Source: Nitrososphaerota archaeon (GTDB lineage: Archaea; Thermoproteota; Nitrososphaeria; Nitrososphaerales; Nitrosopumilaceae). From it: DNA of 63,580 nt. The stretch's first letter is position 1. Each line of letters starts with the position of its first letter. Shown in pieces: positions 2,209 through 22,385 of this stretch. The position numbers were made by a program, and so were the translations under genes. Under the pieces are notes generated by a model that ran no database searches, was not told where the DNA came from, and worked only from the letters and a program-made list of their open reading frames with translations. The DNA lies in contig JAGWFS010000009.1 of the NCBI GenBank assembly GCA_028867785.1, positions 1-63,580 of the forward strand, written 5' to 3'.

Positions 2209-2218
2209 TGTTGTTCTC

Positions 2219-2386: not shown

Positions 2387-2432
2387 GTGCCGATTGTGCC
2401 CCAGTTAACTTTCGTTTTCCTATCAGGAATTT

Positions 2433-2453
2433 CCCCTAGCACGGTACTAGGGG
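2433..2453. other. Hairpin, 7-bp stem
   Basis: CCCCTAG (2433-2439) pairs with CTAGGGG (2447-2453) across a 7-base loop, between the genes at 2219 and 2472. The rightward strand is followed by ATTTT, which gives a weak terminator-like look. It partly overlaps a repeated word (TATCAGGAATTTCCC, 2421-2435). Role unknown: attenuator, operator or mRNA processing site. Confidence 0.5.
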
Positions 2454-2471
2454 ATTTTCCCGATGCGCCAC

Positions 2472-2666
2472 CTAACGTAAGATAATCTCACCCCTTTGCC
2501 ATTCCCCAACTAGGCTATATCCCACCCCACAGTTCATTGGGGCTGGATTCGGGGTTAGAGTGTAGGCTAGATAGTAGTTATGCTCTGCCAGTCTGACCAC
2601 TGATGCCTGACCATCTAGAGTCTTACCATAGTCTAGCATTTGGTTCCAACTAGTGAATACTCTCAT
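2472..2666 (-). CDS. First gene of the leftward operon (64 aa)
   Basis: A 64-aa protein starting MRVFTSWNQMLDYGKTLDG, preceded by an excellent AAAGGAGG site five bases before the ATG. As the first gene next to the divergent control region it is probably expressed earliest. The sequence has short alternating strands and helices and no recognised motif. It could be an early host-interacting protein, which is an inference from position only. Confidence 0.75.
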   Translation of the reverse strand: MRVFTSWNQMLDYGKTLDGQASVVRLAEHNYYLAYTLTPNPAPMNCGVGYSLVGEWQRGEIILR

Positions 2667-2949
2667 GGTTGCCTCCTTTCACCACCATGCTACCACTACT
2701 AACCATCGGCTATCAAGTACCAGAAGTACTGTTACGTTACTGTATCAGGGATTTCCCGGATGGTCCATAGAGTACTTTACATGATAAAGTCCTAGCACCT
2801 CAGCCCCGTAGTTAAGGACCCCAGCCTAGCCGGGGATAGGGTCAATCACTACAGGCCGGGCCGGTCTCAGAGTGGGGGCCTAGCTACCTCCATGAAAATA
2901 CACGACTTAGGACACCTCCAAATGAAAATAAAAATTAAAAAAATTCCAT

Positions 2950-2974
2950 AAAGTGATGCCAAAAGTATCACTTT
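2950..2974. other. Inverted repeat AAAGTGAT/ATCACTTT
   Basis: AAAGTGAT at 2950-2957 is the exact reverse complement of ATCACTTT at 2967-2974, with a 9-base spacer, inside the AT-rich part of the control region. The size and symmetry fit either an operator for a dimeric regulator or an RNA hairpin followed by TTTTAGG. Confidence 0.5.
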
Positions 2975-3075
2975 TAGGCCAAAAATAACCCCAAATAACC
3001 TCCCCACATGAAGGAATATTCATTAGGGAATTTTAATAAATCCTTTAGAATCAATAGATATAACTCCTTTCTTAT

Positions 3076-3104
3076 CAACAACATAGCCTAAGGCTATGTT
3101 GTTG
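3076..3104. other. Perfect 14-bp inverted repeat around one base
   Basis: CAACAACATAGCCT (3076-3089) is followed by a single A and then its exact reverse complement (3091-3104). As RNA it forms a long stem with a tiny loop; as DNA it is a strong operator-like palindrome. No U-tract follows on the plus strand. It lies about 80 bases upstream of the first rightward gene. Confidence 0.7.
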
Positions 3105-3145
3105 TATACTGGGGGAGGGTGTAGACTGGGTTTTTTAGAAATAAC

Positions 3146-3164
3146 CACCGCCCACAAGGCGGTG
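3146..3164 (+). other. GC hairpin in the 5' leader of the rightward operon
   Basis: CACCGCC (3146-3152) and GGCGGTG (3158-3164) form a 7-bp stem with loop CACAA, ending 17 bases before the ATG at 3182. The same stem recurs at 51101-51117 with a different loop. It may stabilise or regulate the leader. Confidence 0.55.
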
Positions 3165-3181
3165 TCCTAAGAGGGTAGGCA

Positions 3182-3739
3182 ATGGTAGAGGACCAAATTC
3201 AACCCATGGAACAGGAGCCGGGCCTTTTTGCTCCTGCCCCACAGCTCCAGCCCTGTAGTTGGCTAGTATGTACCAACGGTCACAAGTGGCCCCCGGCAAT
3301 CCTTGTGGCTAAGTGCCCTGGATGCCAAGGACCCTTCCTGGCCGTACAACAACAGAATTGCCCATTTTGCAATGAGCCAGTCCTCCAGATGTCCTTCCGG
3401 GTGGATGTGGTCCCAGCCGGTGCAGGTGGAGTTCCCCGCTGTAAAGGGGCCCGACCCTTTGGAGAGTCCATAGATGTAGTCCTGGATCGGCAAGGGCACC
3501 AAGAGGCAATATCCAATTTCAAGACATTCCTACAAAAAGAAGCTATGGAGAGGACAAAGGATGGCAAAGATCAAACTAGGATTCCCGGTGGAAGTGACTT
3601 GGGAGGATGCATTTCAGCACGGGGATTACGAAACACCCCAGGAGGCCTTGGAACATTCCAAAATGATCCTTCTCAGCTCTGGCTACCTTTTGAGACAGGA
3701 CAAGAAAGCGGTTTGCTTGGGGATGGACAAGTTGCCTGA
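3182..3739 (+). CDS. Zinc-ribbon protein at the head of the rightward operon
   Basis: A 185-aa ORF with GAGGG before its ATG. Residues about 24-70 carry a Cys at SWLVC, then CPGC and CPFC (KCPGCQGPF, NCPFCNEP), so a zinc-binding ribbon is likely. The part up to about residue 126 looks coding. Beyond 3561 it overlaps the well-supported gene at 3561-3806 in another frame for 179 bases, and the tail becomes Gly-rich and unstructured, so the natural stop may have been lost or a frameshift may be present near 3550. Function unknown; it is probably among the first rightward products. Confidence 0.65.
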   Translation: MVEDQIQPMEQEPGLFAPAPQLQPCSWLVCTNGHKWPPAILVAKCPGCQGPFLAVQQQNCPFCNEPVLQMSFRVDVVPAGAGGVPRCKGARPFGESIDVVLDRQGHQEAISNFKTFLQKEAMERTKDGKDQTRIPGGSDLGGCISARGLRNTPGGLGTFQNDPSQLWLPFETGQESGLLGDGQVA

Positions 3740-3806: not shown

Positions 3807-3964
3807 TGAAGATCTATGAATTGAGAACTAAGGTAGGAAAGAAGGGTCTCAAAATGTCCAGTGGTGAGGTCCGCCATTTTTCTTCGGAGAAGAAAAGGGA
3901 CAACTTTGAGAAGGTAGCTGCGGCCTACTCCCATGGTTGGAAGGGACCGAAGAAGGGTAAATGA
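3806..3964 (+). CDS. Small basic protein (52 aa)
   Basis: A 52-aa protein, MKIYELRTKVGKKGLKMSSG through a Lys-rich C-terminus (WKGPKKGK). It begins at the TAATG junction with the gene at 3561 and ends in an ATGA overlap with the fn3 gene at 3961, which is strong positional evidence. The charge suggests nucleic-acid or membrane-surface contact, but this is speculation. Confidence 0.75.
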   Translation: MKIYELRTKVGKKGLKMSSGEVRHFSSEKKRDNFEKVAAAYSHGWKGPKKGK

Positions 3965-4317
3965 AGAAACTTCTCACACTGGCCCTACTCTTGATTGGAG
4001 TCCTTCATACCCAAACAGCTCATCAAGTGATTCTCACTTGGACTGACCCTAACAACCCCCAAGGGACTCAGTACAATGTCTATCGTCAAACATCTGCCTG
4101 TCCGGCCCAAGCTCCAACAACTACGGATGGGTTTACCAAGATCAACCTCACTCCAGTGTCGGGTCTAACCTATGTGGACACTCCAGTTCAAGTAGGAGTT
4201 GTCTATTGTTACCTTGTCACTGCTGCTAGTGGTACAGTAGAATCGGGTCCCTCACCGGATGCGGGGGCCACTCCGCTCCCTTTTTCACCTGTTACCTTAC
4301 AGATAACGGTAAAGTAG
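3961..4317 (+). CDS. Secreted fibronectin type III-like protein
   Basis: A 118-aa protein. Residues 1-20 form a signal peptide (MKKLLTLALLLIGVLHTQTA). The rest is one fn3 domain: VILTWTDPNNPQGTQYNVYR, then TYVDTPVQVGVVYCYLVTA and SGPSPDAG. Single-domain secreted fn3 proteins of this kind are familiar to me from Acidobacteriota and their phages. In a phage it could act at the host surface, for example in adhesion or in blocking superinfection. The gene overlaps the upstream 52-aa gene by ATGA. Confidence 0.75.
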   Translation: MKKLLTLALLLIGVLHTQTAHQVILTWTDPNNPQGTQYNVYRQTSACPAQAPTTTDGFTKINLTPVSGLTYVDTPVQVGVVYCYLVTAASGTVESGPSPDAGATPLPFSPVTLQITVK

Positions 4318-7528: not shown

Positions 7529-7711
7529 ATGGCAGAAAATTGGCTTAATGATAAAACAGTTGAGGCTCTTGTCAATGCTGGAATTGGAACAGCATTAATT
7601 CCTTCTTGGATGCAATATAATGCTGACTTCCAAAAGATTCAATTAGCTCATAAAGATGTAGAGATAGATTTTCTTAAAAAAGAAATTGTTAGGTTGAGGA
7701 ATGGGCAATGA
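7529..7711 (+). CDS. Small hypothetical protein with coiled C-terminus (60 aa)
   Basis: A 60-aa protein starting at the ATG at 7529 after GGAGGG. The N-terminal half is hydrophobic (LVNAGIGTALIPSWMQYNAD) and the C-terminus is a charged helix (VEIDFLKKEIVRLRNG), possibly a short membrane-associated coiled coil. It overlaps the kinase gene by ATGA. Confidence 0.7.
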   Translation: MAENWLNDKTVEALVNAGIGTALIPSWMQYNADFQKIQLAHKDVEIDFLKKEIVRLRNGQ

Positions 7712-8742
7712 AGATCTTTATTGTAGGAGACGTGGGCTGGGATACATATCTTATTGGGAAGGTGCGAGGACTTTCAGCTGAGGCCCCCATCCCTGTTGTG
7801 GATGTAACCCAACCAGAGACCCTGCCTGGAATGGCCGGAAATGTCCTAGCCAATGTAAGGGCCCTGGGTATTGATGCAGAAGTACTTCAACCTGAGGGAC
7901 AGAACTTTCCTTGGAAGTTCCGGCTAGTGACCCCTGAGGGGCATCAAATGGCCCGATTTGATTTCCAGGATTTCTGTAAGCCCCTTCAGAGGGCAGATCT
8001 ACTGCCCCTGATGGATGCAGATGCAGTGATTGTAGCGGACTATGGGAAAGGGGCTATTGACTCCACTATCACCTCGATACTTGCTGGAATGCAAGCTCCT
8101 TTGTTTGTCGATACAAAACGAGACCCCAGTCCTTGGCTCCAATCCAATGCCATCCTCTTTCCAAACCAGACCGAGTGGGACAAATACCAAGATAAATATG
8201 AATGGTTTCCCCGAGTAGTCCTCAAACAGGGCTCACAGGGAATGAGCTTTGTAGAGTATGGGAAGGTAGTTACTACCCGTTCCGCATGGGCCAAGCAAGT
8301 CCAATGTGTGAATGGAGCAGGGGACACAGTCATTGCAGCGTTTGCTACAGCATACCTTGGCCTCCAAAGCTCCATCCAACATTGCCTAGATGTGGCCTCA
8401 GCAGCCGCAGCCCTGGTTGTGGAGCAGGATTTCCTGCACCGCACCACTACAGGGGATAAGATTTACAGGAGGATTACCCATGAAGTTCCCGAAAAAGCTT
8501 ACCGTCCAGACCAAACACCTAGTCGGAGTATGCCTACTATTAGCCACGCTTGGCAGCTTGGGGTGGCAAGTTCGTTACCTCAGCAAGCAGTTGGAGAAGG
8601 ACGAGGCCCATATCGAGGAACTTCACCAGTGGGCAACACAGGTTACAGTAATGCTCAATTCGGCCCGACAGTAGGTTTGCCAGAGGATTACTGGGACAAG
8701 TTAGAGAAATCTCTAGAAGATCAATTCAAGTGGCAGGATTAA
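7708..8742 (+). CDS. PfkB/RfaE-like sugar kinase (HldE domain I type)
   Basis: The first about 255 residues form a ribokinase/PfkB-family kinase close to the HldE kinase domain, which phosphorylates D-glycero-manno-heptose 7-phosphate. Visible motifs: IFIVGDVGWDTYLIGKVRG, AEAPIPVVDV, a Gly-rich PGMAGNVLANVRALG, ADYGKG, and the catalytic NGAGDTVIAAFATAY. The nucleotidyltransferase domain of full HldE is absent. From about residue 258 the ORF overlaps the well-supported membrane gene at 8480-8674 in another frame and looks non-native, so the true stop may be lost. Possible partners are the SIS isomerase (50197) and GT9 transferase (20889). Confidence 0.8.
   Translation: MKIFIVGDVGWDTYLIGKVRGLSAEAPIPVVDVTQPETLPGMAGNVLANVRALGIDAEVLQPEGQNFPWKFRLVTPEGHQMARFDFQDFCKPLQRADLLPLMDADAVIVADYGKGAIDSTITSILAGMQAPLFVDTKRDPSPWLQSNAILFPNQTEWDKYQDKYEWFPRVVLKQGSQGMSFVEYGKVVTTRSAWAKQVQCVNGAGDTVIAAFATAYLGLQSSIQHCLDVASAAAALVVEQDFLHRTTTGDKIYRRITHEVPEKAYRPDQTPSRSMPTISHAWQLGVASSLPQQAVGEGRGPYRGTSPVGNTGYSNAQFGPTVGLPEDYWDKLEKSLEDQFKWQD
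8480..8674 (+). CDS. Embedded small membrane protein (possible spanin or holin-type)
   Basis: A 64-aa protein with an AGGAGG site seven bases before its ATG, lying wholly inside the kinase ORF in another frame. It has a basic N-terminus, one TM helix (HLVGVCLLLATLGSLGW), then a charged coiled-coil-like tail (YLSKQLEKDEAHIEELHQW). This N-in, helix-out layout is typical of phage inner-membrane spanins, and lysis-type genes follow at 9736. A short TTG frame (8677-8742) continues after its stop and shares the kinase frame. Confidence 0.65.
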   Translation: MKFPKKLTVQTKHLVGVCLLLATLGSLGWQVRYLSKQLEKDEAHIEELHQWATQVTVMLNSARQ

Positions 8743-9569
8743 ATCTCAGGGCCTTAGCCCAACTCCCAAAAGCCCAGCGCCAGGCCGTAATGGCCCTCCA
8801 TGGGCAAAGTGAGTGGGTCAAATGTGCAGAAGACCCAATCTACTGGTTGGATTCCTCTCAGCACCCAGACAAGATCCCCTACGTCTACACTAAGGACCCT
8901 CACAAGATCTATACATGCCGGGCCTGTCAGACAGAGGTAGTGGAAGACCGAAGGGTCTTCCACAATGAAATTATCCATGACAAACATCAGAATGGATTGA
9001 GGCAGCTCCTAGAGGATTTTGAACTCCTCCCAGCAATTCGCCCTTTTACTTTGATGGAGTATATGCCTCCCATCATTCAGGCCTGGGTCACTTCTCAGTA
9101 TTTTGCAATTGAGAAATCCCGGGACATGATGGCCACCTGGCTTATGATTGCCTTATTTACTTGGGATGCCATGTTCCATGAAGGCAGGCAACATATCTTC
9201 CAATCTGAGGATGCATTCAAAACATTGGAACTTGTACAAAGAGCTGACTTAATTTACCGGGAGACACCGGCTTTTCTTAAGAAGGCCATTGGCCGGGCCC
9301 AGTTCTCGAAAGGCAATGCCAAGTCTGGGGAGTTGTTCTTCCTAGATCAAAAAAGTGAGATCCTAGGCTTCCCTCAAGGACCAGACCAGATCCGTCAGTT
9401 CCACCCCACCGGAGTCTTTGCTGATGAGGCTGCATTCCAGTTAGAGGCTGGGGCCTCCTTTGCAGCAGTCAAACCAGCCATCATGATGGGAGGAAGATAC
9501 TCTATGATCTCCTCGGCAAATAGATCTTGGTTTGAGCAGGTTTGTAGGGATAGGGTGGAGGAAGCATGA
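8730..9569 (+). CDS. terL: Terminase large subunit, ATPase half (split gene)
   Basis: A 279-aa protein starting at a GTG. It holds the motor part of a large terminase: WVTSQYFAIEKSRDMMATWL contains a Walker A-like KSRDMMATW, and HPTGVFADEAAFQLEAG contains the Walker B FADEA with a downstream SMISSAN coupling motif. The protein ends at WFEQVCRDRVEEA, exactly where the ATPase of a normal TerL passes to the nuclease. The nuclease half is a separate gene at 11098. Together they total 580 aa, a normal TerL length. It overlaps the next gene by ATGA. Confidence 0.9.
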   Translation: MAGLNLRALAQLPKAQRQAVMALHGQSEWVKCAEDPIYWLDSSQHPDKIPYVYTKDPHKIYTCRACQTEVVEDRRVFHNEIIHDKHQNGLRQLLEDFELLPAIRPFTLMEYMPPIIQAWVTSQYFAIEKSRDMMATWLMIALFTWDAMFHEGRQHIFQSEDAFKTLELVQRADLIYRETPAFLKKAIGRAQFSKGNAKSGELFFLDQKSEILGFPQGPDQIRQFHPTGVFADEAAFQLEAGASFAAVKPAIMMGGRYSMISSANRSWFEQVCRDRVEEA

Positions 9570-9739
9570 CACAAAAAAGAAAAGAGGGATCCATAAAAAT
9601 ATATCGAGAAGATGGAAAAACTTCCTGCATTTTTTGGGGGCCTTTTAGTATAGTGTCTATGAATATGGGGCATTATCCGGCATGTATAACTTTTAAATTA
9701 CCTCTGTGGCTCCATAATTGGATCGTCAATAATTTATGA
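9566..9739 (+). CDS. Small AT-rich gene inside the terminase split (57 aa)
   Basis: A 57-aa protein starting MTQKRKEGSIKIYREDGK, with an aromatic, hydrophobic C-terminus (ITFKLPLWLHNWIVNNL). ATGA overlaps on both sides tie it to the terminase ATPase gene and the lysis-type gene. It is visibly more AT-rich than its neighbours. No family is recognised. It does not resemble a homing endonuclease or an intein. Confidence 0.65.
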   Translation: MTQKRKEGSIKIYREDGKTSCIFWGPFSIVSMNMGHYPACITFKLPLWLHNWIVNNL

Positions 9740-10131
9740 ATGATCTTCTTGTTAAACTTGCAGGTGCTATTGCAACAGCAGAAGGGTACTTTGCTCCCAA
9801 CTCAGTCCCCGCTAGGGACAACAACCCTGGAGATCTTCGGGCAGCTCCATGGCTCCCAGCAGCTAAGATAGTCCGCAATTTTACAGTCTTCTCTTCCCCA
9901 GCCCAAGGGATTGGAGGCCTCTACCACCAACTCGCCCTAGATATTGCTAGGGGAGATACTCTGAGACAGTTAGTATATCGGTGGGCACCTCCTGAGGATG
10001 GAAATAACACAGAGAACTACTTGAAAGAGACAGCCCGTAGGGTGGGGATTGAAGTCCTTAACCCCCCAGTCAAGGGGAAGGGCCTTGACCAACCTTTGCA
10101 GGAGCTACTTGAACTATGTCATATTCCCTAA
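9736..10131 (+). CDS. Lysozyme-like or transglycosylase-like lytic protein
   Basis: A 131-aa protein resembling small phage cell-wall-degrading proteins: the start LVKLAGAIATAEGYFAP places a Glu in the AEG position typical of the lysozyme fold, followed by ARDNNPGDLRAAPW, FSSPAQGIGGLYHQL and TLRQLVYRWAPPEDGNN. The pattern NNPGDL plus WAPPxDGNN recurs in phage endolysin-like or virion muralytic proteins. No signal peptide is seen. Its neighbours at 10116 and 10362 fit a lysis cassette. Confidence 0.7.
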   Translation: MNDLLVKLAGAIATAEGYFAPNSVPARDNNPGDLRAAPWLPAAKIVRNFTVFSSPAQGIGGLYHQLALDIARGDTLRQLVYRWAPPEDGNNTENYLKETARRVGIEVLNPPVKGKGLDQPLQELLELCHIP

Positions 10132-10553: not shown

Positions 10554-11110
10554 TGGATGTATTTGAACAATTAGACCGGGAGTATCCATCCCAGACTCAC
10601 AAGTTGGATAAGTTCAAGGAGTTGTTTGATCCACTGGTACCTGGAGATTTTGCTGAGTTTGGAGTCTATAATGGGAATGGGGCAAGGGAGTTGGCCTCTC
10701 TTGATCCCTCCCGGACTTGTTGGGCCTTTGATACCTTTGAGGGAATGCCCCAAGAGGATTATAGTGGGGATGAAGATAGTTCAGATCCTCCCGGTAAGTG
10801 GAAACCATCCGCAGAGCCTGAGGCCCTCTTCCACGGAATCCCTAATATCACAGCAATCAAGGGGCGTTTTGTAGATACACTAGGCCTAGTGAATGATGAA
10901 GTACACTTCTCCCTCGTCCATGTAGATTGTGATTGGTATTGGAGTCATCGCCAAGTCCTGGAATTCCTAGAGTCACACCTCAACCATGGAGCAAAGATCG
11001 TCTTTGATGATTGGACATTGGCTGGGGCTAAACGGGCCATTCAAGAGTGGCGGGACCGAGTAGGCCCCAAAGTGAAGGGTGAAGGAGAAGTACTAGTGTG
11101 GGTAGGGTAA
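10553..11110 (+). CDS. SAM-dependent methyltransferase, TylF/MycF-like
   Basis: A 185-aa class I methyltransferase: GDFAEFGVYNGNGARELASL is the SAM-binding motif I, followed by WAFDTFEGMPQEDYSGDED, FSLVHVDCDWYWS (acidic motif) and AKIVFDDWTLAGAKRAI. These are hallmarks of TylF/MycF macrocin O-methyltransferase-type enzymes, which methylate sugar hydroxyls with a metal ion. It may modify a glycan together with the other sugar enzymes. It sits inside the split terminase and overlaps the nuclease half by 13 bases. Confidence 0.85.
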   Translation: MDVFEQLDREYPSQTHKLDKFKELFDPLVPGDFAEFGVYNGNGARELASLDPSRTCWAFDTFEGMPQEDYSGDEDSSDPPGKWKPSAEPEALFHGIPNITAIKGRFVDTLGLVNDEVHFSLVHVDCDWYWSHRQVLEFLESHLNHGAKIVFDDWTLAGAKRAIQEWRDRVGPKVKGEGEVLVWVG

Positions 11111-12003
11111 TTCATGAACAAACGGGTCTGCGAATTGTTACTAATGATAAAAATGGCTTTACAATTTGCACACTACATTATACTGCTGATCCCCGTAAAA
11201 GATCTCCAGAGTGGCGGGATGCAGCCCGAAAGGGTCTAAAGCAGGCCGAGTTTGAGCAGGAATACGAGATCATCTATGATGCCTACATGGGGCAAAAGGT
11301 CTTTCCTGAGATCAAATCCCGTAGATCAGAGATCATCGTAAGGGAAGGGCCTTATGAATTCAATGCCTGGCCAAAGCACCTTCCAATGTGGGGAGGATTT
11401 GATTACGGTAAAAATAACCCTTCCAGCTTCCATGTGTACACCATTGTTGATGGAGTTACTTATGCCCTCTGGGAACTCTATGAACCGTGTAGAAATATAT
11501 TCGATTTTGTCTCTGCTCTCAAGTCATGCCCTTACTGGGACCAAATCCGGTACATTGCCCATGACCCTGACATCGACAATTTCAAAGAACGGGATATGAA
11601 AACTGGTGGAGTCACCACAGTGAAGAGACAGTTTGAGTCCCTAGGGATTTCTAAGTGGATGCGGGGTAATAATGATGAGCAGTCCTGGCTCATTAAGATG
11701 AATCAACACTGGGTCCCAGAGCAGGTGACTTTTAAGATCCTTGAGTGCTGCCCAGCTATGATTGATGAGTTTGAATCAGCTACCTACACACAAATGACCC
11801 ACCGGCAGTTGGAGACTCAAAATTATAAGGAAACCATGGTCAATAAGCATAATCATGCTATGGATGATTGTAAATATTTTATGAACTCCAACCCCAACCC
11901 AGTGGTGAGACCACTCAAGTACTTCAATGTGGCCTCCACGTATGGATGGGGTGGTCCAGAGCAACGCCCCTCTCAACGACCATCACAGTTAGGACTTTAT
12001 TAG
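11098..12003 (+). CDS. terL: Terminase large subunit, nuclease half (split gene)
   Basis: A 301-aa protein starting at GTG 11098 behind GAAGGAGA. It begins in what is normally the linker of TerL (FTICTLHYTADPRK), then has the RuvC-like nuclease core: MWGGFDYGKNNPSSFHVYTI (first Asp), YIAHDPDIDNF (second acidic site) and MVNKHNHAMDDCKYFMNSNP (final Asp pair). No ATPase motif is present, so it must work with the product of 8730-9569. It cuts concatemeric DNA during packaging. Confidence 0.9.
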   Translation: MGRVIHEQTGLRIVTNDKNGFTICTLHYTADPRKRSPEWRDAARKGLKQAEFEQEYEIIYDAYMGQKVFPEIKSRRSEIIVREGPYEFNAWPKHLPMWGGFDYGKNNPSSFHVYTIVDGVTYALWELYEPCRNIFDFVSALKSCPYWDQIRYIAHDPDIDNFKERDMKTGGVTTVKRQFESLGISKWMRGNNDEQSWLIKMNQHWVPEQVTFKILECCPAMIDEFESATYTQMTHRQLETQNYKETMVNKHNHAMDDCKYFMNSNPNPVVRPLKYFNVASTYGWGGPEQRPSQRPSQLGLY

Positions 12004-12429: not shown

Positions 12430-14787
12430 GTGATCTACCCCTGGGAACATAGTTATCCAATAGAATATCAGCAGCAGAATCTGGCCTCTGGGAATACCAT
12501 CCCCAATGAGTTTGAGGCCAAGGTGTCCCAGTACATTATGACCTGGCGACAACAGTGCAGATCTGTCTTCATCCAACGAAGGAATATCTGGGACCGTTGC
12601 TGGAAGTACTTTCGTCTTGAGGAGGACTACTCCGCTAAACAGGGATGGCAAAGTCAGATCGTCCTGCCTAAAGTCTTTACCTCAGTGAAGATGGCTGCAA
12701 ACACAATCAAAAGACTTCTCCTGGCTGCTAAGAAACCCTGGGATGTAGAGGCAGTAAATGAGGATGACCTCATCCAAACCCTCAGGGCCGAGCAGATGAC
12801 CGATCTCACAAAGCTCTTCCTGGATAAGGCCTATTTCCTACCGGAATTTACTGAGGGCCTTGAATCGGCCTTCATCACAGGGATAGGAGTATGGAAACTT
12901 TGGTGGGGCCAGGTCCCCCGTAAGCAAGTCCGGGTTGAGACCCGGATGATCCAGAGTCCCTACAATCAGCCCCAGGCCCAGCAGGGCCAGTCTCTATTAG
13001 GGTCTGTGCCCAGTCCCCGGGAGGCCCCACCTCCTTTTGCCCAGCCCCGATTTGGCTATGCCCAACAGGCAGTGTCCCAGTTCCCTACCCAAATGGGTGG
13101 AGAGTTCATCAATCCTATGGGATTACCAGGAGGACAGGCTGCCCCCAGTGCTCCGCCTAATGTTCTTGAAATACCTACTGTCCTCCATGAAAAGCGGGTC
13201 ATTGAGGAAGAGATCCTTGAGGGTCGCCTTTTTATGAAGGCTGTAGACCCCTATAATTTCTATTGGCTCCCCGGCTCCAAACTTAATCGGTGGGTAGGGA
13301 CGTTGGAGGATATTGAAATCCCCAAGTGGGAACTTATCAAGATGGCTGAGGCAGGGATCTTCCCTATGGACAAGGTCATGCAGGTCCAACCCCGGCGTAT
13401 TGATGAGCGATACAAAATGTCCAACCTTCGGTGGACAGAGACTGTGATGACCCAGAATGGGCCTAATGCTGACACAGCAGTGGTAAAGCTCACTGAATAT
13501 TATGGGCCGTTGGTCTGGGATGGTAAGATCATCGAAGAGTATGCCCATGTTCTCCTGGCCAATGACACCACAGTGCTGGTCCTTCAACGGAATCCTTTCT
13601 ATCACCGGAAGCCCCCATATATTGCATTCTCTCCCCTAGCCATTCCCTTCCGTACTGAGGGTGTGGGTATTGTGGAACCCGTCCTCCAGCTTCAGAAGGC
13701 CCTATCCAACCTGGCCAATATGAGTGTGGACACACTCCAATTCCGACTCATGCCCCTCTTTGAAGTGGCTACGGAGACCCTGGAAAACCAGGAAGATCTA
13801 GAGACGGGGATGACCCCGGGGAAGGTCTTTAGGAAGAACTTGGGCCATGCCGGGATTGAGGCTATCAAACCGGTGGAGATGATGGATATTTCCTCAGGTA
13901 CCACCCAAGTGTGGAGTGCCCTTGACCGATCCTTCCAGGAAGGTGCCCTCGTAAGTGATGTGGCAGAGGGGCTACCTAGAAATAGAGGCCAACAGACTGC
14001 CACAGAAACTCAACTCCTTTCTCAACAGACTGAGACCTTCATGGGTGGAATGGCAGCAGATATTGAGAAGCAGGCTCTAGAACCAATTGTCTCTATGGCT
14101 ATAGACCTTATCTTCCAATTCATTGACACTGCCAATGATCCTCGGATTGCCTCAATCCTAGGGGTAGGGGCGGACATCCTTAAAGGTATGAGCCGGGCTG
14201 AGATCTTGGAGATGATCTCTGGTGACTACAAAGTGAAGGTCAGTGGGATTACTGGCCAACTTATGAAGGCCGATATGCTCCAGAATCTGGTTCAGTTCAT
14301 GAACCTGGTGGGCCAAAATCCACAGGCCTGGCTTCCCTACATCAATGAAGATGCCCTCCTACGGAGAATGCTTGAGGCCTTTCGACCCCATATCCATGAC
14401 CTGGAGGATATCATTGCAGATCCTGCTATTGCAGAAGCCAAACGGGCTGCTATGGTTCAGACAGAGAATCTACCAGAACTTATGAGACTTCTGCCCCAGT
14501 TGTTACAACTCCAGCAGGGTCAACAGCAGCAACCCCAGCAACTTGATCCTAACCAGCTTCTTCAGTCTCTTGGGGATATGCATCAACAGAATCAGGACAT
14601 CGGCCTTCAACTCCAGACCCAGCAACATGAGAGGGAGATGGCTCAGATGGAGCAGAAGAGTCAGGCCATGCAAGCCCAGCAGCAAATGCAACAGGCTCAG
14701 GTAGAGCATCAACAGCAACTCCAGCAAATGGCAGCCCAGGCAGGTTTACAGAATGCTGCCAAAGCAAATCAAGGACAACAAGGATGA
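12430..14787 (+). CDS. Portal protein
   Basis: A 785-aa protein starting at GTG. The size and order (terminase, portal, scaffold, capsid) fit a podovirus-type portal that forms the dodecameric ring at the capsid vertex. Features: N-terminal helical region with WRQQCRSVFIQRRNIWDRCW, a central core with DPYNFYWLPG, PPYIAFSPLAIPFRTEGVG and LSNLANMSVDTLQF, then PRNRGQQTATETQLLSQQT, as in many portal clip and wing regions. The last about 100 residues are Gln/Met-rich and coiled. A Pro/Gln-rich insertion lies near residues 175-250. Confidence 0.85.
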   Translation: MIYPWEHSYPIEYQQQNLASGNTIPNEFEAKVSQYIMTWRQQCRSVFIQRRNIWDRCWKYFRLEEDYSAKQGWQSQIVLPKVFTSVKMAANTIKRLLLAAKKPWDVEAVNEDDLIQTLRAEQMTDLTKLFLDKAYFLPEFTEGLESAFITGIGVWKLWWGQVPRKQVRVETRMIQSPYNQPQAQQGQSLLGSVPSPREAPPPFAQPRFGYAQQAVSQFPTQMGGEFINPMGLPGGQAAPSAPPNVLEIPTVLHEKRVIEEEILEGRLFMKAVDPYNFYWLPGSKLNRWVGTLEDIEIPKWELIKMAEAGIFPMDKVMQVQPRRIDERYKMSNLRWTETVMTQNGPNADTAVVKLTEYYGPLVWDGKIIEEYAHVLLANDTTVLVLQRNPFYHRKPPYIAFSPLAIPFRTEGVGIVEPVLQLQKALSNLANMSVDTLQFRLMPLFEVATETLENQEDLETGMTPGKVFRKNLGHAGIEAIKPVEMMDISSGTTQVWSALDRSFQEGALVSDVAEGLPRNRGQQTATETQLLSQQTETFMGGMAADIEKQALEPIVSMAIDLIFQFIDTANDPRIASILGVGADILKGMSRAEILEMISGDYKVKVSGITGQLMKADMLQNLVQFMNLVGQNPQAWLPYINEDALLRRMLEAFRPHIHDLEDIIADPAIAEAKRAAMVQTENLPELMRLLPQLLQLQQGQQQQPQQLDPNQLLQSLGDMHQQNQDIGLQLQTQQHEREMAQMEQKSQAMQAQQQMQQAQVEHQQQLQQMAAQAGLQNAAKANQGQQG

Positions 14788-14909
14788 GTTATAGTCTTGG
14801 ATCTCCGGGTGGTTGGCATAATACAGCAAGCATTACTTCAATTACTCTTACACCGGGAGCGGGAAATTTTACAATAGGCAGTACGTTCACACTTTATGGA
14901 GTGCAATAG
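14784..14909 (+). pseudogene. Remnant of a tail-fibre C-terminal tip (41 codons)
   Basis: An ATG overlapping the portal stop opens a 41-codon frame with WHNTASITSITLTPGAGNF and TFTLYGVQ. This closely matches the last 34 residues of the next gene (WNNTAAITSITVTLGSGNF then TFILRGLN). It therefore looks like the surviving 3' end of a second fibre gene, or a spare tip segment. It overlaps the start of the beta-propeller gene by one base. Whether it is translated is unknown. Confidence 0.65.
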
Positions 14910-17050
14910 TGAAAAAAATTTTAGGTCTGCTTTTGGGTCTTGTATCATTTTGTCATAGTGCATCTATCACATCTGCTAATTGGGATCAGGCCCGAACTGG
15001 AGCCAATCCTAATGAAGTACAGATCACAGCAGCAAATGTAAACACCCTTGTGGCTGGCCCAGTTCTACCTGTCAGTGGGGCGGTTATGGGACAGCCTTTG
15101 GTGGTTCCTATTGGACCAACCACAGGTCTTATCACCTGTACCATGACCAATGACTGTTATGCATTTGATGCAGTGGCGGGGACTCAACTATGGCATACAA
15201 ATTTAGGTATTACTCCCCGTACCTCATTGAATGCTGGTCAGAACATCAATCAATTCTATACCTCAGGTGTGGGTTGTGTAGCAACTCCAGCAGTGGATTT
15301 GGCCCTGGGGAAGGTCTTTGCTGTGTGTGCTACGAGTACACCTAGTTGGGTGCTTTTCTCACTAGATCTTACCACCGGTAATACTCTCGGAAGTGTAACA
15401 GTCACGGGTTCTGTGACTGGTAGTGGAGATCCATCTGGTGGAGATCTGGTAGCTGGTGGATCACTAACCTTTTATCCTGCCTATGAATTAAGCAGAGGTG
15501 GTGTGACTCTGGCTAATGGAAATGTCTATGTGACATTTGCAAGTTATAATGATACCCATCCTTATCACGGGTGGGTGATGGGATATACTGAAACAACTCT
15601 TGCTCCTGTGGGGGTATTTTGTACCACTCCATCGGGTGGGGCGGGTGGAGTGTGGATGGCAGGTGGCGGGATAGCAGTAGATTCCACAGGGAATCTTTAC
15701 CTCTCTACTGGAAATGGGACTTGGGATGGTACGACAAACTTTGCCAACTCCATCCTAAAACTTAGTCCATCACTCCAGTTGCTGGACTGGTTTACCCCAA
15801 GTAACTATGCAGCCCTTTCTTCGGTGGATGCAGATTTGGCCTCTAATCGACCAATCCTCATCCCAAACACCTCCTACCTTGTCCATACAAGTAAGGGATT
15901 TCAGGTGTTTGTACTAAGTATCACCAATCTTGGGCATCTCCAAGGAACGCCAGTACAGACTTGGACAATGGCTGGTACACCTGGTAATGACTCTGGGGCT
16001 TTTGGATCACTACTCTCCAATGGGGTATTCTATATCCCTACCACTACTGGTCTTCTTAGTGCATTCCAGTGGACTGGGGGTGGATTCAACACCACACCTG
16101 TGGCTACAAATACTTTCAGTGTAGGCTCTCCGGGTCCAAGTGCTTTGGCCGGTACTCCAGGGTTGGTTTGGGTAATCACTACCGCAGGTACTGGCTCTGC
16201 TGATACCATGGCCCAGCAGGGAGTGCTTCATGCACTTAATTCTACCAGCTTGGTAGAGCTGTGGAACTCAGGAAGTTTTGGGACAATGACAAAGTTCTCC
16301 AGTCCCACAGTTGCTAATGGCCAGATTTTTATTCCTACACAAGATGGAAAGATCTTAGTGTATACCCTTCCCGCCCAGGGTGGGGGATCAGATGTAGATA
16401 CCCCGGCCAGTGTTCCCACTGCCAATAAGACCTCTACTACTGGGACAATCTTTATGTTGGCGGCTTCTGATGTGGCGACAGCACCAGCAGGGACCCTAAC
16501 CTGTATCAATGGTGGACTCATCACAACAGTGGGATGTAATGGAACCACTTCTGGTGGTGGGGCAGTTACCACAATAAGTACTAACACTGTCGGTACTGCT
16601 ACACCAAGTGTGACTTTCTCAAATATACCTAGTGGATATCTGGAACTAGAATTAACCATCACGGGTCGTAGCGATACCACTAGTGCTACTACATTCGGTA
16701 ATCTCCAATTCAATGGGGATGTGGGAGCAAACTATAACTACTACAATCTACTCTCCAATTGGAATGCTGGAAGTACTGGCCAAACATCCATCCATGTATG
16801 TTCATTTACTGGTGCAGGTGGGAGTGCCTCCTATGCGGGCACTTGTATTGTCAGGCTACCTCTCTATAGTAAAACATCCTTTAATAAACTTGTATCTGAG
16901 TTAGAGGGATCACATGGTAGTGGAAGCACTTCTACAGGTGTGTCATTTGGGGACTGGAATAATACAGCCGCAATTACCTCTATTACAGTGACTTTAGGTA
17001 GTGGTAATTTTGCCCCTGGCACTACCTTTATTTTGAGAGGTTTAAATTGA
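14909..17050 (+). CDS. Secreted PQQ-like beta-propeller fused to a tail-fibre tip
   Basis: A 713-aa protein starting at GTG. Residues 1-18 form a signal peptide (VKKILGLLLGLVSFCHSAS). About residues 20-500 form a PQQ-like beta-propeller: the opening NWDQARTGANPNEVQITAAN and repeated blades such as GNVYVTFAS, GNLYLSTGNGTWDG, GVFYIPTTTGLLSA and GQIFIPTQDGKILVYTLP. From about 540 a different domain begins, ending in SYAGTCIVRLPLYS and SITVTLGSGNFAPGTTFIL, which is a phage tail-fibre C-terminal domain. It looks like a host-derived propeller joined to a fibre tip; it could bind a surface receptor or be exported. Confidence 0.8.
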   Translation: MKKILGLLLGLVSFCHSASITSANWDQARTGANPNEVQITAANVNTLVAGPVLPVSGAVMGQPLVVPIGPTTGLITCTMTNDCYAFDAVAGTQLWHTNLGITPRTSLNAGQNINQFYTSGVGCVATPAVDLALGKVFAVCATSTPSWVLFSLDLTTGNTLGSVTVTGSVTGSGDPSGGDLVAGGSLTFYPAYELSRGGVTLANGNVYVTFASYNDTHPYHGWVMGYTETTLAPVGVFCTTPSGGAGGVWMAGGGIAVDSTGNLYLSTGNGTWDGTTNFANSILKLSPSLQLLDWFTPSNYAALSSVDADLASNRPILIPNTSYLVHTSKGFQVFVLSITNLGHLQGTPVQTWTMAGTPGNDSGAFGSLLSNGVFYIPTTTGLLSAFQWTGGGFNTTPVATNTFSVGSPGPSALAGTPGLVWVITTAGTGSADTMAQQGVLHALNSTSLVELWNSGSFGTMTKFSSPTVANGQIFIPTQDGKILVYTLPAQGGGSDVDTPASVPTANKTSTTGTIFMLAASDVATAPAGTLTCINGGLITTVGCNGTTSGGGAVTTISTNTVGTATPSVTFSNIPSGYLELELTITGRSDTTSATTFGNLQFNGDVGANYNYYNLLSNWNAGSTGQTSIHVCSFTGAGGSASYAGTCIVRLPLYSKTSFNKLVSELEGSHGSGSTSTGVSFGDWNNTAAITSITVTLGSGNFAPGTTFILRGLN

Positions 17051-17343
17051 CAAGATCAGATCAACTTGTGGCAGTAGCTAAGGCAGAGGACACTTATGAT
17101 CTCCTCCAACATATTGCCTGGGAAAAAATTATCAAGCCCGCCCTGGACCAAGAGGTGAAGAAATACTCCGAACTTCTTGTGGCCGAGGCTCTTGGCACAT
17201 CCCTTCCGGGTGGGTTGACCCGTGAGCAGGTAGCAGGCCGTTGCTATGGAATTCACTTTGTATCCTCCCTCTTTGAAAAGATTCTCCAACGAGGTGAGAA
17301 GGCACTTGAGGATCTACAAGGCGCTGGAATTAAGGTCCAGTAG
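17047..17343 (+). CDS. Hypothetical protein before the scaffold (98 aa)
   Basis: A 98-aa helical protein starting at TTG (TTGA overlap with the fibre stop). It contains LLQHIAWEKIIKPALDQEVK and QVAGRCYGIHFVSSLFEKIL. The position between fibre and scaffold suggests a capsid-assembly helper. No family recognised. Confidence 0.6.
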   Translation: MTRSDQLVAVAKAEDTYDLLQHIAWEKIIKPALDQEVKKYSELLVAEALGTSLPGGLTREQVAGRCYGIHFVSSLFEKILQRGEKALEDLQGAGIKVQ

Positions 17344-17369: not shown

Positions 17370-18173
17370 ATGCCCTATACCTACACACCCCCAGCTACGC
17401 CGGATACCCAACAGGTCCAGACTCAACAGGTCCAACAGCAGGAAACCCCTGACCAGAAGTATGAACGCTTGTATGGTCAGACTAATCAGGAGATCAAGCA
17501 AATTCGAGAGGCCCTAACCTCAGCCAACCCCAGTGAGGAGTTGAAAGCCCTCCGTGCTGAGTTGGCCTCCCTTAAGGAAACAGTTAAACCCCCGGCCCCT
17601 GTCCAGCAGGCACCTGTCCGCCCCAAGTGGGTGGAGAAAATTGCCACTGGTGAGTACGTGGATGCAGAAGGGGAACTGGCCAATTCTATTAAGTCCCGTT
17701 TGGATGGGGACTATAAAAAAGCTCTTGACGAAGTGAGGGCCGCTGCCTACCAGGATGCTCTCAATGCCACACATGTAAATCTTGAGATTGATCGCCATGT
17801 CCAGGCATTGAGAATCAGCAACCCTGAGCTGGTACCGTTTGAAAAATATCTTCAGGCCCCTGTAGCCCAACGCGTGGAGGAAGCCAAGGCTGCTGGGAAA
17901 ATTAAAGCTCCAACAGATTTTATCCGTGAATACACTGCTGCTATTGATGCAGAAGTGGATAACTTACGACAACTGGGTCTTGTGCTTCGTGGCCAAGGCA
18001 AGCAGGAGGCACAGATGCGGAACCAGCAAGTGCTGGCCTCAACTGTGATTACTCCAAATCCTATCCAATCCATTCAGCCCCAAGGGCAGTCGCAGCAGGT
18101 CTCTGAACAGTCAATTGATGATTACTTTAGCCAGAGACGTTCTGATGAGGCCCGGCGTAAGGGGATGGCATAG
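17370..18173 (+). CDS. Probable capsid scaffolding protein
   Basis: A 267-aa Gln/Glu-rich, mostly helical protein directly before the capsid gene: a Pro/Gln-rich start (PPATPDTQQVQTQQVQQQET), coiled coil (SEELKALRAELASLKETV), and a basic C-terminal end (DDYFSQRRSDEARRKGMA) that in scaffolds contacts the capsid protein. Assignment rests on composition and position, since scaffolds share little sequence. Confidence 0.7.
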   Translation: MPYTYTPPATPDTQQVQTQQVQQQETPDQKYERLYGQTNQEIKQIREALTSANPSEELKALRAELASLKETVKPPAPVQQAPVRPKWVEKIATGEYVDAEGELANSIKSRLDGDYKKALDEVRAAAYQDALNATHVNLEIDRHVQALRISNPELVPFEKYLQAPVAQRVEEAKAAGKIKAPTDFIREYTAAIDAEVDNLRQLGLVLRGQGKQEAQMRNQQVLASTVITPNPIQSIQPQGQSQQVSEQSIDDYFSQRRSDEARRKGMA

Positions 18174-18199: not shown

Positions 18200-19810
18200 A
18201 TGGCAGGTCCCCACAAAGTGGGCATGGCCTGAAAGCCAGGTAACTGGTAGATGAACTTCGCTATATGCGAGAAAATCCTAAAGTTCCTTTTACTACCTAG
18301 TAAAAATAAAGGAGATGAAACAATGGACAACCCGCAGGCAACACCCTATGAAATAGGCTATTTAGCTGGGCTCATTGATGGAGAAGGCTGTATTGCAATT
18401 CAAAAAACCTCAGGTAATTCCTTTGGAATTAATTTGAAGATTACCAATACGGATGAACACATCATTGAGAAAGCCCAGTCGATAATGTTAAAGATTGGAG
18501 TTAATCCTCTTATCCGAGACAGAGTCAATACCAACAATCCGCAATGGCGGGGTTGGATGGAAGTTTACCTCACAAAGAAGGATAATATCAAGAAGGTCCT
18601 TGAAATAGTCCTTCCATACCTTGTAGGTAAATATCCTCGTGCCATTATGATGCTTAGATTTATAGATAAATCTATAGATCGTGAGGATGCTTATTGGCAA
18701 ATGAAGGCCATGAATAAAAAGGGTGAGTCCCCAGAGACTACACGCGAAGCTCCAAAAGGTACATCATATGATGACTGTTCTGGTAATTGGAATGGTATCA
18801 TCAATAATGTAGCTGTTGGGTGAAGATATAGTCCACGCAGCCTAGAAATATGCTGATACAACGTGCAACAGTATTCCACCGGGTCTCTCGGTGGATTCAT
18901 GTCCCAGCCCTACCTGACTCAGCGTCTCCGTGCTGTGGCCCAGCCCCAGTTCCGTTTCCGCCAGTTTGTGGATGTTAAGGAAGCCATTGGTAAAAACCGT
19001 GGTGACACTTGGCTCTATGATAAACGTGGAAATGTGAGCACCCAGGGTACAGTACTGAGTGAAACCAATACCATTCCCCAGACACAATTTGTAGTTGGTC
19101 AAGGGACGGGTATTGTAGTTGAATATGCTAACAGCGTCCCCTACACTGGGAAGCTGGAAGCCCTTGGCCAGATCATGATTGAACCTGCTGTTGAGCAGGC
19201 CCTTCGTGATGACATGGTTAAGGCTCTTGAGTCAGCGGCTGGATCTCAATACATTAACACTGAATTCATCGCTGTGATGAGTGCAACTAACAGCGTTGTC
19301 ATTACTACTAATGGCACCGCAACCGCTACTGCAACTGCGGACCTTACGGCCTTCAATGTGCAGTCTGTGGTCAACTTCATGAAGAAAAAGCTGATTCCCA
19401 AGTATGACGGGCAGTCCTATATTTGTATTGCCTCTACCTCTGCTCTGGCTGGCATGTTTACTGATGCCTCTGCCGGTGGCTGGGTTGATGTGTCCAAATA
19501 TCAGGTTGAATTTGCTAAGAACATCTTTAATGGTGAGATTGGCAAGTACTACAATACCCGTTTTGTTGAGGAGACTGGCTTCTTCTCCAACACTATTGGC
19601 AGTGGCAGTACCCATGGTGCTGCGGTTTTCTTTGGGGCAGACTCGGTCTATGAGGCCGTGACTATCCCTGAGGAAATTCGTGTCAAGGTGTCCATTGACT
19701 TTGGACGTGATCAGGCCCTAGCCTGGTACTTCCTTGGTGGATGGAAGACTGTGTGGTCCTGGTCTGCAACCCCTGCGGAACAGCACATTGTCTATGTGAC
19801 TTCAGCCTAA
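18200..19810 (+). CDS. Major capsid protein, N4-gp56-like, interrupted by an intron
   Basis: Two exons are proposed: 18200-18230 (MAGPHKVGMA and one base, behind AAAGGAGA) and 18864-19810, giving 325 aa. The second exon has features of the N4-gp56 capsid family: QYSTGSLGGFMSQPYLTQRL, FVDVKEAIGKNRGDTWLYDK, QGTGIVVEYANSVPYTGKLE and KVSIDFGRDQALAWYFLGGW. Without splicing, the capsid frame has only a GTG at 18863 with no ribosome site. The join T|TG restores the frame (codon 11, Leu). It forms the shell of the head. Confidence 0.8.
18231..18863 (+). mobile_element. Group I intron in the capsid gene
   Basis: A 633-base insertion. Its 3' part carries GAAGATATAGTCC (about 18822-18834), the conserved P7 sequence of group I introns, and it encodes a LAGLIDADG endonuclease. 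The proposed 5' site follows a T (18230) that can pair in a P1-like helix TGGC/GCCA, and the 3' end is a G (18863), as group I chemistry requires. The exact ends are inferred from the reading frame and could shift by a few bases. Confidence 0.8.
18323..18823 (+). CDS. LAGLIDADG homing endonuclease
   Basis: A 166-aa protein; the ATG at 18323 follows AAAGGAGATG. It contains YLAGLIDGEGCIAIQKTSG, a single LAGLIDADG motif with the catalytic acidic residue, then NTDEHIIEKAQSIM and YLTKKDNIKKVLEIVLPYL. Single-motif enzymes act as homodimers, cutting intron-less capsid genes to spread the intron. The frame lies wholly within the intron, ending just before the P7 sequence. More AT-rich than the flanking exons. 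Confidence 0.9.
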   Translation: MDNPQATPYEIGYLAGLIDGEGCIAIQKTSGNSFGINLKITNTDEHIIEKAQSIMLKIGVNPLIRDRVNTNNPQWRGWMEVYLTKKDNIKKVLEIVLPYLVGKYPRAIMMLRFIDKSIDREDAYWQMKAMNKKGESPETTREAPKGTSYDDCSGNWNGIINNVAVG

Positions 19811-20409: not shown

Positions 20410-20889
20410 ATGGCAACCAAAACGGTACAGGAGCTAGATGCTCCCAAAACGGAAGAGAAGTCCAAGACCCTTACCAACTGGAAGGTCTTTGAAGAGGCGG
20501 GGTTCATCCCTGCTACAGTCAAGTGTTCAGGATATAAAGGAAGTCACCCGGCAGATCTTAGCTGCCAAACAAATATTGTCCCCACTACGGAGAATGTCCT
20601 CCGTCATCTTAACCCTGATCATGGTGGTGGGTGGTTTAGGATTAAGTTTAGGATCTCCGATTCCAAAAAGTCTCCTCTTTGGAAGGGACTTGAAGAGGCG
20701 GGAATTGAATTGAAGGAGTTCTACTGCCCTCATTGTGAAGCAGATGTGCCCCTGACTCCCCGCAGAATTATTTACCATCTTAATCCCCACCCAGGCCGAA
20801 ATAGGGTGAATCTGGACCCTCAGGTCCTTTGCATGTCTCTCAGTCCTGATAAAGAAGAGATGGCTGATACGGGAGATCTATATATCTAA
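20410..20889 (+). CDS. Protein with two Cys-containing repeats
   Basis: A 159-aa protein with an internal duplication. Repeat 1 (about 22-80): WKVFEEAGFIPATVKCSGY, a second Cys, and VLRHLNPDHGGGWFRIKF. Repeat 2 (about 93-140): LWKGLEEAGIELKEFYCPHC and IIYHLNPHPGRNRVN. Each has paired Cys and a HLNP-H motif, so a duplicated metal-binding fold is likely. It ends in TAATG with the next gene. Function unknown. Confidence 0.7.
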   Translation: MATKTVQELDAPKTEEKSKTLTNWKVFEEAGFIPATVKCSGYKGSHPADLSCQTNIVPTTENVLRHLNPDHGGGWFRIKFRISDSKKSPLWKGLEEAGIELKEFYCPHCEADVPLTPRRIIYHLNPHPGRNRVNLDPQVLCMSLSPDKEEMADTGDLYI

Positions 20890-22385
20890 TGGCAGACTAT
20901 CGGTGGGCATTATTTAGGGCGGGTGCATACCTTCGGGGGAGGGGAGTTACTTTTGGGTCTCCCCTCGTTCCTCAAGAGGCAGTCAATTCAAAGATTTACT
21001 CCATCTGTGTGGGTCTCGTGAAGGGTAATGGGGTGGTAGGGCTGGATGAGAATTTTGATATCTTTTCCTACCGAAGTTTGGATCATGTCCTGGTGACTCC
21101 TATGGTAGCTGCTTGTAAGGATACCCAACAGGTGGTGAAGGACCTAATCTCTAAACTCAAGGTGGGTGGTCATTTTGTGACCCTCACTGATGACTATGCT
21201 AGAGGTCCGGGGACGCTAGATCTTCCCTCCTACCAACTTGAACAATGGATTGGGGAGTCGGGACGGTGGCAGAGGAAGTTGGTCCATGGGCAGGATGGCA
21301 AGACCTTAATGATCTTCAAACGGCTAGAGGGCAAAAAGGGGGTGATCCAGTGGACGGCCCCACAAGGAAGACGGGTCCTTGTGTGTAGGTATGGAGCACT
21401 TGGCGATGCAATTGTAATGACCCCGCTCCTTCGGAAGCTAAAGGAGGATGGATGGCATGTGTCCCTTAATGTTAATCCCTACTGCTTGGCAGCACTTGAG
21501 AATAATCCCTACGTGGATAATCTCATTGTGCAGGAGAAGGATGTAATTCCCAATCCCCTTCTTGGGGAGTACTGGAAATTTTGGGCAGGCCAGTATGATA
21601 AATACATTAATCTATCTGAATCTATTGAAGGGGATCTCCTAATGGTTGAGGGGAGACCCTGCTTTTATACCCCTCAGGCCTGGCGGCATTCTGTGGCAAA
21701 TGTCAATTACTATGACTACACCATGTCCCGAGGAGGCTATCCAAAGATCCTTGGCACCCGAGGAGAGTTATTCTTTACTAATGCTGAGGAAAGGAAGGCT
21801 AAGGACTATTTCAGGACGTTGACTGGGAAGTTTGTGGTGGTGTGGGCCCTCAATGGGTCTTCCCATCACAAGGTCTATCCTATGATGGAGCCCACATTGA
21901 GAACCTGGTTCAAGTCCCATCCTGACTCGGTGGTGATTACTACTGGGGATACGATGGCCCAGTTATTGGAATTTCCACATCCCCAAATGATCCCGCAGGC
22001 TGGGAAGTGGGGAATTCGAGAGTCCCTCATCTCTACCAAATATGCAGATCTGGTGATTGGACCTGAGACTATGATGACTAATGCAGCGGGGTGCTTTCCC
22101 ACTCCTAAGATGGTCTTCCTCAGTCACTCCTCACCCGAGAATCTCACTAAGTATTGGGAGAATTGTGTGGCCTTAGAACCAACTGAAGCTCCGTGCTGGC
22201 CTTGCCACCAACTCCATTACACCAAAGAGTCCTGTCCAATTGGGGTGATGAGGGATACAATCACTGGAGAAGAACTAGGACAGGCCCCAATGTGTTCTAT
22301 GGGGGTATCCCCAACAAAGGTCTTGGAGGAGATGGAGAAGATCTACCAGGCATGGAAGGGAACTAGGAAGGTTCTTGCAGCGTGA
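20889..22385 (+). CDS. GT9 (heptosyltransferase-like) glycosyltransferase with N-terminal methyltransferase-like part
   Basis: A 498-aa protein. From about residue 160 it is a family 9 glycosyltransferase, the family of ADP-heptose:LPS heptosyltransferases: GRRVLVCRYGALGDAIVMTP (GDxxxxTP motif), a central VVVWALNGSSHHKVYP, and TKYADLVIGPETMMTNAAG. A Cys cluster near the C-terminus (APCWPCHQ, ESCP) is also seen in GT9 relatives. Residues about 30-150 resemble the end of a class I methyltransferase (SKLKVGGHFVTLTDD). It may transfer heptose to LPS or virion glycans. Confidence 0.85.
   Translation: MADYRWALFRAGAYLRGRGVTFGSPLVPQEAVNSKIYSICVGLVKGNGVVGLDENFDIFSYRSLDHVLVTPMVAACKDTQQVVKDLISKLKVGGHFVTLTDDYARGPGTLDLPSYQLEQWIGESGRWQRKLVHGQDGKTLMIFKRLEGKKGVIQWTAPQGRRVLVCRYGALGDAIVMTPLLRKLKEDGWHVSLNVNPYCLAALENNPYVDNLIVQEKDVIPNPLLGEYWKFWAGQYDKYINLSESIEGDLLMVEGRPCFYTPQAWRHSVANVNYYDYTMSRGGYPKILGTRGELFFTNAEERKAKDYFRTLTGKFVVVWALNGSSHHKVYPMMEPTLRTWFKSHPDSVVITTGDTMAQLLEFPHPQMIPQAGKWGIRESLISTKYADLVIGPETMMTNAAGCFPTPKMVFLSHSSPENLTKYWENCVALEPTEAPCWPCHQLHYTKESCPIGVMRDTITGEELGQAPMCSMGVSPTKVLEEMEKIYQAWKGTRKVLAA

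Follow-up and report, generated by a model that had tools for sequence, protein, structure and literature searches.

A variable slot between the portal and head genes of a phage clade encodes fiber-like proteins with predicted signal peptides

We analyzed a stretch of 63,580 nucleotides (the window; contig JAGWFS010000009.1) whose ends, positions 1-77 and 63504-63580, form an identical 77-bp terminal repeat. The contig is a circular or complete phage genome that encodes a terminase, a portal, a capsid protein and DNA polymerase A. Between the portal gene and a conserved 98-aa gene lie a 41-codon frame and a gene for a 713-aa protein, both present exactly as an initial annotation had described them. 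The features of the window are as follows.

7708-8742, + strand: HldE-kinase-like PfkB gene (E 1e-37), heptose-pathway-like
8730-9569 and 11098-12003: terminase large subunit, in two frames about 1.5 kb apart
12430-14787, + strand: portal protein gene (phrog_1216 portal, E 4e-26), left border of the variable slot
14784-14909, + strand: 41-codon leftover tip with an ATG start, corresponding to the C-terminal quarter of the fiber-tip domain
14909-17050, + strand: gene for the 713-aa protein, with a GTG start
14909-14965, + strand: Sec-type signal peptide, residues about 1-19 (rule-based score 2.99)
14966-16378, + strand: PQQ-like (BamB/quinoprotein-type) eight-bladed beta-propeller, residues about 20-490
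16379-16558, + strand: linker with a Cys pair and a Gly-rich stretch, residues about 491-550 (TLTCINGGLITTVGCNGTTSGGG; pLDDT under 50)
16559-17050, + strand: C-terminal jelly-roll fiber-tip domain and stop, residues about 551-713
17047-17343, + strand: conserved 98-aa gene with a TTG start, 45-59% identical in relatives, right border of the slot
17370-18173, + strand: scaffold-like gene, 40% identical in relative L021, positioned before the capsid gene
18863-19810, + strand: major capsid protein gene (phrog_1357)
20889-22385, + strand: 498-aa protein resembling a GT9 heptosyltransferase (by eye; no Pfam match)
50197-50844, - strand: GmhA-like SIS gene (E 4e-25), heptose-pathway-like
63105-63296: array of 6- and 24-bp tandem repeats (AAGACC / AGACCCAGACCAAGACCTAGACCA), near the circular junction

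The genes of the slot are joined by overlapping codons: the portal stop and the 41-codon start share ATGA, the stop of the 41-codon frame and the GTG start share TAGTG, and the stop of the 713-aa gene and the start of the 98-aa gene share TTGA. By inspection, both starts have plausible Shine-Dalgarno sequences (AAGGA, and GGAG at 7 nt). The contig had been placed in the bin of an archaeal genome, in which rpoB_arch scored over its cut-off and an rRNA search found no SSU, and the same fusion appeared on no second independent contig, as would be expected if an assembly or binning artefact had brought together a propeller and a fiber tip from different genomes. Such an artefact is most improbable, given the circular contig with its terminal repeat, the overlapping stop and start codons at both gene ends and the conservation of the flanks in relatives. 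Moreover, the 713-codon frame is unbroken and its two halves have similar third-position G+C (37% and 33%), and we therefore disfavored a chimeric assembly. We attribute the archaeal assignment to faulty binning rather than to a chimeric contig. Because the window encodes a lytic transglycosylase within a tail-type protein, heptose-pathway-like genes and a coliphage-related capsid, it almost certainly belongs to a phage of bacteria and was wrongly placed in an archaeal MAG, which is contaminated. Acidobacteriota would be a guess at its host, based on the relatives of the propeller.

The 713-aa protein starts with a signal-peptide-like N-terminus (MKKILGLLLGLVSFCHSA, followed by S), with cleavage predicted near 18/19. 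The secretion signal that had been proposed for it was recovered by the rule-based caller, and its alignment with the signal peptide of a secreted homolog of cellular type begins at residue 1. The protein lacks a lipobox, as VSFC does not qualify. No enzyme family scored above the cut-off in Pfam or NCBIfam, and a direct protein search of 50,697 phage genomes, with either the full 713 aa or the tip alone, returned no match.

Residues 20-490 had been assigned to a PQQ-like propeller of a type found in acidobacterial secreted proteins, and both parts of this assignment held. In Pfam alone, the match to PF01011 stayed below the curated cut-off (E 5e-4; 19.3 bits versus 26.7). An alignment-based scan of bacterial genomes found 288 related loci, with the best (E 7e-72) in Bryobacterales L025, and a family-profile search matched BamB and quinoprotein dehydrogenases of known structure. 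The AlphaFold model has a pLDDT of about 90 over these residues, and fold comparison aligned it with BamB at Z 34.8 (332 residues) and with quinoprotein (PQQ) dehydrogenases at Z of about 32. The best 80 of the 288 loci are mostly from Acidobacteriota and Verrucomicrobiota, and the tree also supports this kinship. The signal peptide, the eight blades and the invariant R/D/W/D/D/K residues are common to the window protein and the secreted family, although the closest secreted relative, L025, shares only 36% identity with the window propeller, and family members end in nothing or in other C-terminal extensions, whereas the window protein ends in a phage fiber tip. The phage propeller keeps 58 of 83 conserved family positions, so it is not decaying; the invariant polar residues R196, D215, W249, D258, D307, D309 and K329 are all kept. 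In a tree of 65 sequences, the window propeller sits on a long branch (1.77) with no close kin, and a 100/100 branch separates it from four archaeal homologs, for which reason we rejected an archaeal donor. This placement points to an old bacterial-type acquisition or to fast evolution.

The propeller alone, used as a single sequence, had no match in IMG/VR, and an alignment-based scan of the same collection returned L022, L023 and L024. We rejected L022 and L023 as further phage captures and did not use them as evidence, because their propellers nest in Acidobacteriaceae in the tree; both may be host or provirus sequence, and the L022 propeller is 82% identical in DNA to L103. L024 is a sound phage contig in which a signal-peptide PQQ-like propeller (1704-3398) lies within a tail gene module, beside the tail sheath and tape measure genes; its long branch leaves its place in the tree unsure.

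The C-terminal part of the 713-aa protein is a typical fiber C-terminal domain, as had been proposed. It matched a phage-fiber C-terminal profile at E 1e-47 (the window tip is one of the 16 rows of this profile) and had 143 matches at E <= 1e-3 among the BFVD predicted viral proteins (top E 8e-22), which come from uncultured Caudovirales and include several named tail-fiber or collagen proteins. The tip was poorly predicted in the full-length model, in which the mixed alignment put tips on the propeller; we therefore used a separate tip model, which is a beta jelly-roll with a pLDDT of 88.6. Its PDB matches were only middling (Z 6-7.5: fructofuranosidase beta-sandwiches, galectins and a chlamydial Pgp3 domain), and we claim no ligand for this reason. 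Uncultured Caudovirales L002 and L004-L006 carry the same tip domain as tandem stand-alone genes, with the same fold, length and end motif (W-NTAAITSIT...GSTF-LYGI). However, the Caudovirales tips stand alone or behind fiber modules without a signal peptide, whereas the window tip stands behind a signal peptide and a propeller.

The 41-codon frame upstream matched the last 41 columns (130-170 of 170) of the tip profile at E 5e-10, well above any chance match and in agreement with its earlier description as a leftover tip, and the similarity starts within the last bases of the portal gene, at 14778. Its identity to the intact tip (61% in protein, 58% in DNA, 30% at third codon positions) indicates an old, once-constrained copy rather than a recent duplicate. 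The most plausible origin of the frame is an earlier slot gene of which the 3′ end survives, and it may have been retained as a link between the translation of the portal and that of the new gene. Modular or invertible fiber-tip cassettes of the Mu/P1 type likewise combine a variable fiber locus with a spare tip end. Unlike those cassettes, the window has no inverted repeats flanking the tips, only short weak repeats, and no further copy of the tip was found elsewhere in its genome; a diversity-generating retroelement was considered through the repeat part of this test. The divergence of the two tips makes homologous exchange between them unlikely. Therefore, we rejected an invertible or recombinational cassette, and the idea that the second tip is exchangeable and offers a route for receptor switching was not borne out.

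Relatives of the window phage were found by alignment-based scans with the capsid, the portal and the 98-aa gene, and the capsid gene served to find the clade. Capsids are 66-87% identical within the clade and 37% identical in Escherichia phage PTXU04, and the relatives' portals are 63-75% identical to that of the window. The clade comprises uncultured phages of podovirus type, with coliphage PTXU04 as a distant relative, and has a constant order of terminase, portal, slot, 98-aa gene, scaffold and capsid. The cultured Escherichia phages PTXU04 and HelliStehle Bas95 (Xuquatrovirus group; Bas95 depends on O-antigen, PMC11990801) are also of podovirus type and share the core order of portal, small gene, scaffold and capsid. 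However, they have no slot, the portal being followed directly by the small gene, and their fiber genes, which lack signal peptides, lie between the terminase and the portal.

The genes that reside in the slot differ from relative to relative; even L021, whose capsid is 87% identical to that of the window, has a wholly different slot. Wide slots span about 1.9-8 kb, and 10 of the 11 wide-slot genomes carry at least one signal-peptide protein there (rule-based calls, with L179, L180 and L181 judged by eye). In L021, a signal peptide is joined to a LamG lectin (Laminin_G_3, E 1e-21). A signal peptide and a Cys module precede a collagen-like fiber assigned to tail-fiber PHROGs in L105, collagen-like repeats in L154 and a long beta-rich protein in L155, L160 and L161. 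Four signal-peptide genes stand in a row in L128, three occupy the slot of L179, and L180 encodes a signal-peptide protein of 1,769 aa. The wide slot of L181 (same as L182) holds tail-fiber-family genes without signal peptides, which marks the locus as a fiber locus, and the narrow slots of a sister group are mostly without signal-peptide genes. The signal peptide with a two-Cys N-terminal module is common to five members, whose C-terminal parts are divergent, and a scan of all IMG/VR found this module in this clade only.

These comparisons bear on the earlier proposal that a host gene had been captured into a fiber locus. The core of the proposal stands, as a bacterial-type secreted propeller is joined to a fiber tip, but the signal peptide is no isolated remnant of that capture. 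A single capture that left an unselected signal peptide behind would account for a propeller that is cellular in type, aligns with secreted homologs from residue 1, has low third-position G+C and branches far outside the known clades. It would not account for signal peptides that recur on unrelated mature slot proteins in nearly all wide-slot genomes, nor for their presence on a clade-specific N-terminal module. The comparative data thus already disfavor this explanation, which we regard as highly unlikely.

The enrichment of signal peptides in the slot was assessed with a home-made rule-based caller. Signal peptides were called in 13 of 36 slot genes versus 6 of 259 other genes (Fisher p 2.5e-9), and none of 20,000 within-genome shuffles reached 13. 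Genes within one slot are not independent, and the per-genome count of 10 of 11 is therefore the safer figure. The caller is conservative, as it missed a 236-aa protein of L161 and a twin-arginine-like 423-aa protein of L105. Cysteine content, a measure independent of the caller, is 2.06% in mature signal-peptide slot proteins versus 0.33% in the other virion-type proteins of the window, a six-fold difference; it is 0.50% in the relatives' head proteins and 1.05% in slot proteins without signals. The number of cysteines is even in 12 of 15 mature signal-peptide slot proteins (p 0.018). Export of the slot proteins is strongly suggested, and the earlier idea that a signal peptide on the 713-aa protein points to secretion is supported.

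The fibers of tailed phages are assembled in the cytoplasm. Phage virion proteins have been recognized, among other things, by their lack of a signal peptide (PMC6199706), against which the predicted signal peptide of the window protein stands out. A clade with predicted export signals on most of its fiber-locus proteins breaks the expectation of signal-free fibers made in the cytoplasm. The main rival to export with action at the surface is that the slot proteins are head or tail fibers of the virion, which either use their hydrophobic N-terminus not for export but as an anchor in the virion or a membrane, or are exported, folded in the periplasm and attached to particles at lysis. Virion incorporation is possible because the slot genes lie among the head genes and fiber modules are normally virion parts; such modules are found in the window tip, in the collagen-like tail-fiber families of L105 and in the tail-fiber families of L181. 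Additionally, a conserved N-terminal module before variable C-termini resembles a virion attachment domain, and the head and tail fiber genes of Bas95 lie near its portal gene. However, classical signal peptides occur on many unrelated mature slot proteins, their high and mostly even cysteine counts point to an oxidizing compartment, tailed phages assemble in the cytoplasm, and the fibers of the cultured relatives lack signals. On balance, we consider virion fibers a possible but rather unlikely explanation.

Overall, we favor, at roughly even odds (a probability of about 0.5), a reading in which a swappable fiber or adhesin cassette occupies the region from the portal to the 98-aa gene, and its products are exported and probably act on the surface of the infected cell. 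The gene residing there would, in the window and most other members, encode a modular fiber-like binding protein with a signal peptide, which would be exported by Sec during late infection, fold outside the cytoplasm with disulfide bonds and display a lectin-like C-terminal domain. For the window protein, this would mean a stalk derived from an old acquisition, the propeller of a bacterial family of secreted proteins, and a phage fiber tip as the binding end; the 41-codon frame would be the surviving 3′ end of a previous resident, retained within the chain of overlapping stop and start codons. We infer that such proteins most likely act at the cell surface or in the medium, where they would bind surface glycans and thereby keep later phages and newly released progeny from adhering to that cell or to its debris. 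Expression together with the structural genes, if it occurs, would be late for superinfection exclusion, yet suitable for keeping progeny off debris. The window protein need not bind the receptor of its own phage, since its tip has no second copy in the genome.

Virulent phages that bind porins are known to disable their receptors (Cor, Llp). The O16-dependent coliphages have no recognizable receptor-inactivating strategy (PMC11990801). These two observations, together with the lectin-like or fiber-tip C-terminal domains, lead us to favor surface masking. Llp of T5 (PMC9586334) and Ltp of TP-J34 (PMC3952083) are small exported superinfection-exclusion lipoproteins; like the slot proteins, they are phage-encoded and exported (by prediction, for the slot proteins), and are proposed to act at the host surface. 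Unlike them, the slot proteins are large, modular and fiber-like, occupy a head-gene slot and differ in every relative, and they have no lipobox; the window protein, with VSFC and 713 aa, matches neither the lipobox nor the size of Llp and Ltp. Full-text literature searches for phage propeller fibers or for phages with exported fibers returned nothing on point. More tentatively, we speculate that a fiber locus has turned into a secretion locus, which releases free, disulfide-bonded, lectin-like fibers via Sec (perhaps Tat) to coat the surface glycans of the dying cell, as receptor masking for glycan-binding virulent phages with turnover by whole-protein swaps. The clade offers a concrete, testable answer to how such phages might keep their progeny off debris. 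It also shows that fiber loci draw on secreted proteins of bacteria for their parts.

Alternatively, the slot proteins might be cargo, that is, secreted enzymes or accessory proteins acquired from hosts that alter the envelope or surroundings of the infected cell, with the tip only anchoring the propeller to a surface. Secreted proteins of the propeller family are widespread in bacteria, and their invariant polar residues are retained in the phage copy. Additionally, the window carries heptose-pathway-like genes, and the 423-aa slot protein of L105 has a twin-arginine-like N-terminus and metallophosphoesterase-like motifs. However, most slot proteins resemble binding or fiber proteins rather than enzymes, and the 713-aa protein itself belongs to no enzyme family above the Pfam and NCBIfam cut-offs. 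We therefore find cargo quite unlikely and retain the exported adhesin cassette. The heptose-pathway-like genes may serve to modify the LPS of the host or to glycosylate exported phage proteins.

Several further observations concern individual slot proteins and the rest of these genomes. The 423-aa protein of L105 (7307-8578) has a good twin-arginine motif (TRRKFGK), metallophosphoesterase-like motifs (GDCVN, GNHDY) and no Pfam match; a phage-encoded Tat substrate, as it suggests, would be unusual. In L021, a 417-aa slot protein (8811-10064) has a long coiled-coil-like N-terminus, an internal membrane segment that ends in a signal-peptidase-like site (ARPAHA-QQ) and a fiber-like C-terminus related to L128 proteins. 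Outside the slot, two more short genes of the window (3961-4317, + strand, and 51134-51451, - strand), with no Pfam match, have signal-peptide-like N-termini. A histidine-phosphatase-like gene lies downstream of the tail genes in the window (35671-36552) and inside the slot in L105 (3453-4202). Between the two terminase frames of the window are a small ORF (9736) and a TylF-type methyltransferase gene (10553), and the split is possibly an intron or an insertion. A homing-endonuclease-like ORF (18251-18823) adjoins the capsid gene of the window. In L125/L160 and L130, the major capsid gene is broken by about 0.6-0.7 kb, with matches to residues 2-132 and 73-315 or to residues 2-72 and 71-315, which suggests that these breaks are introns.
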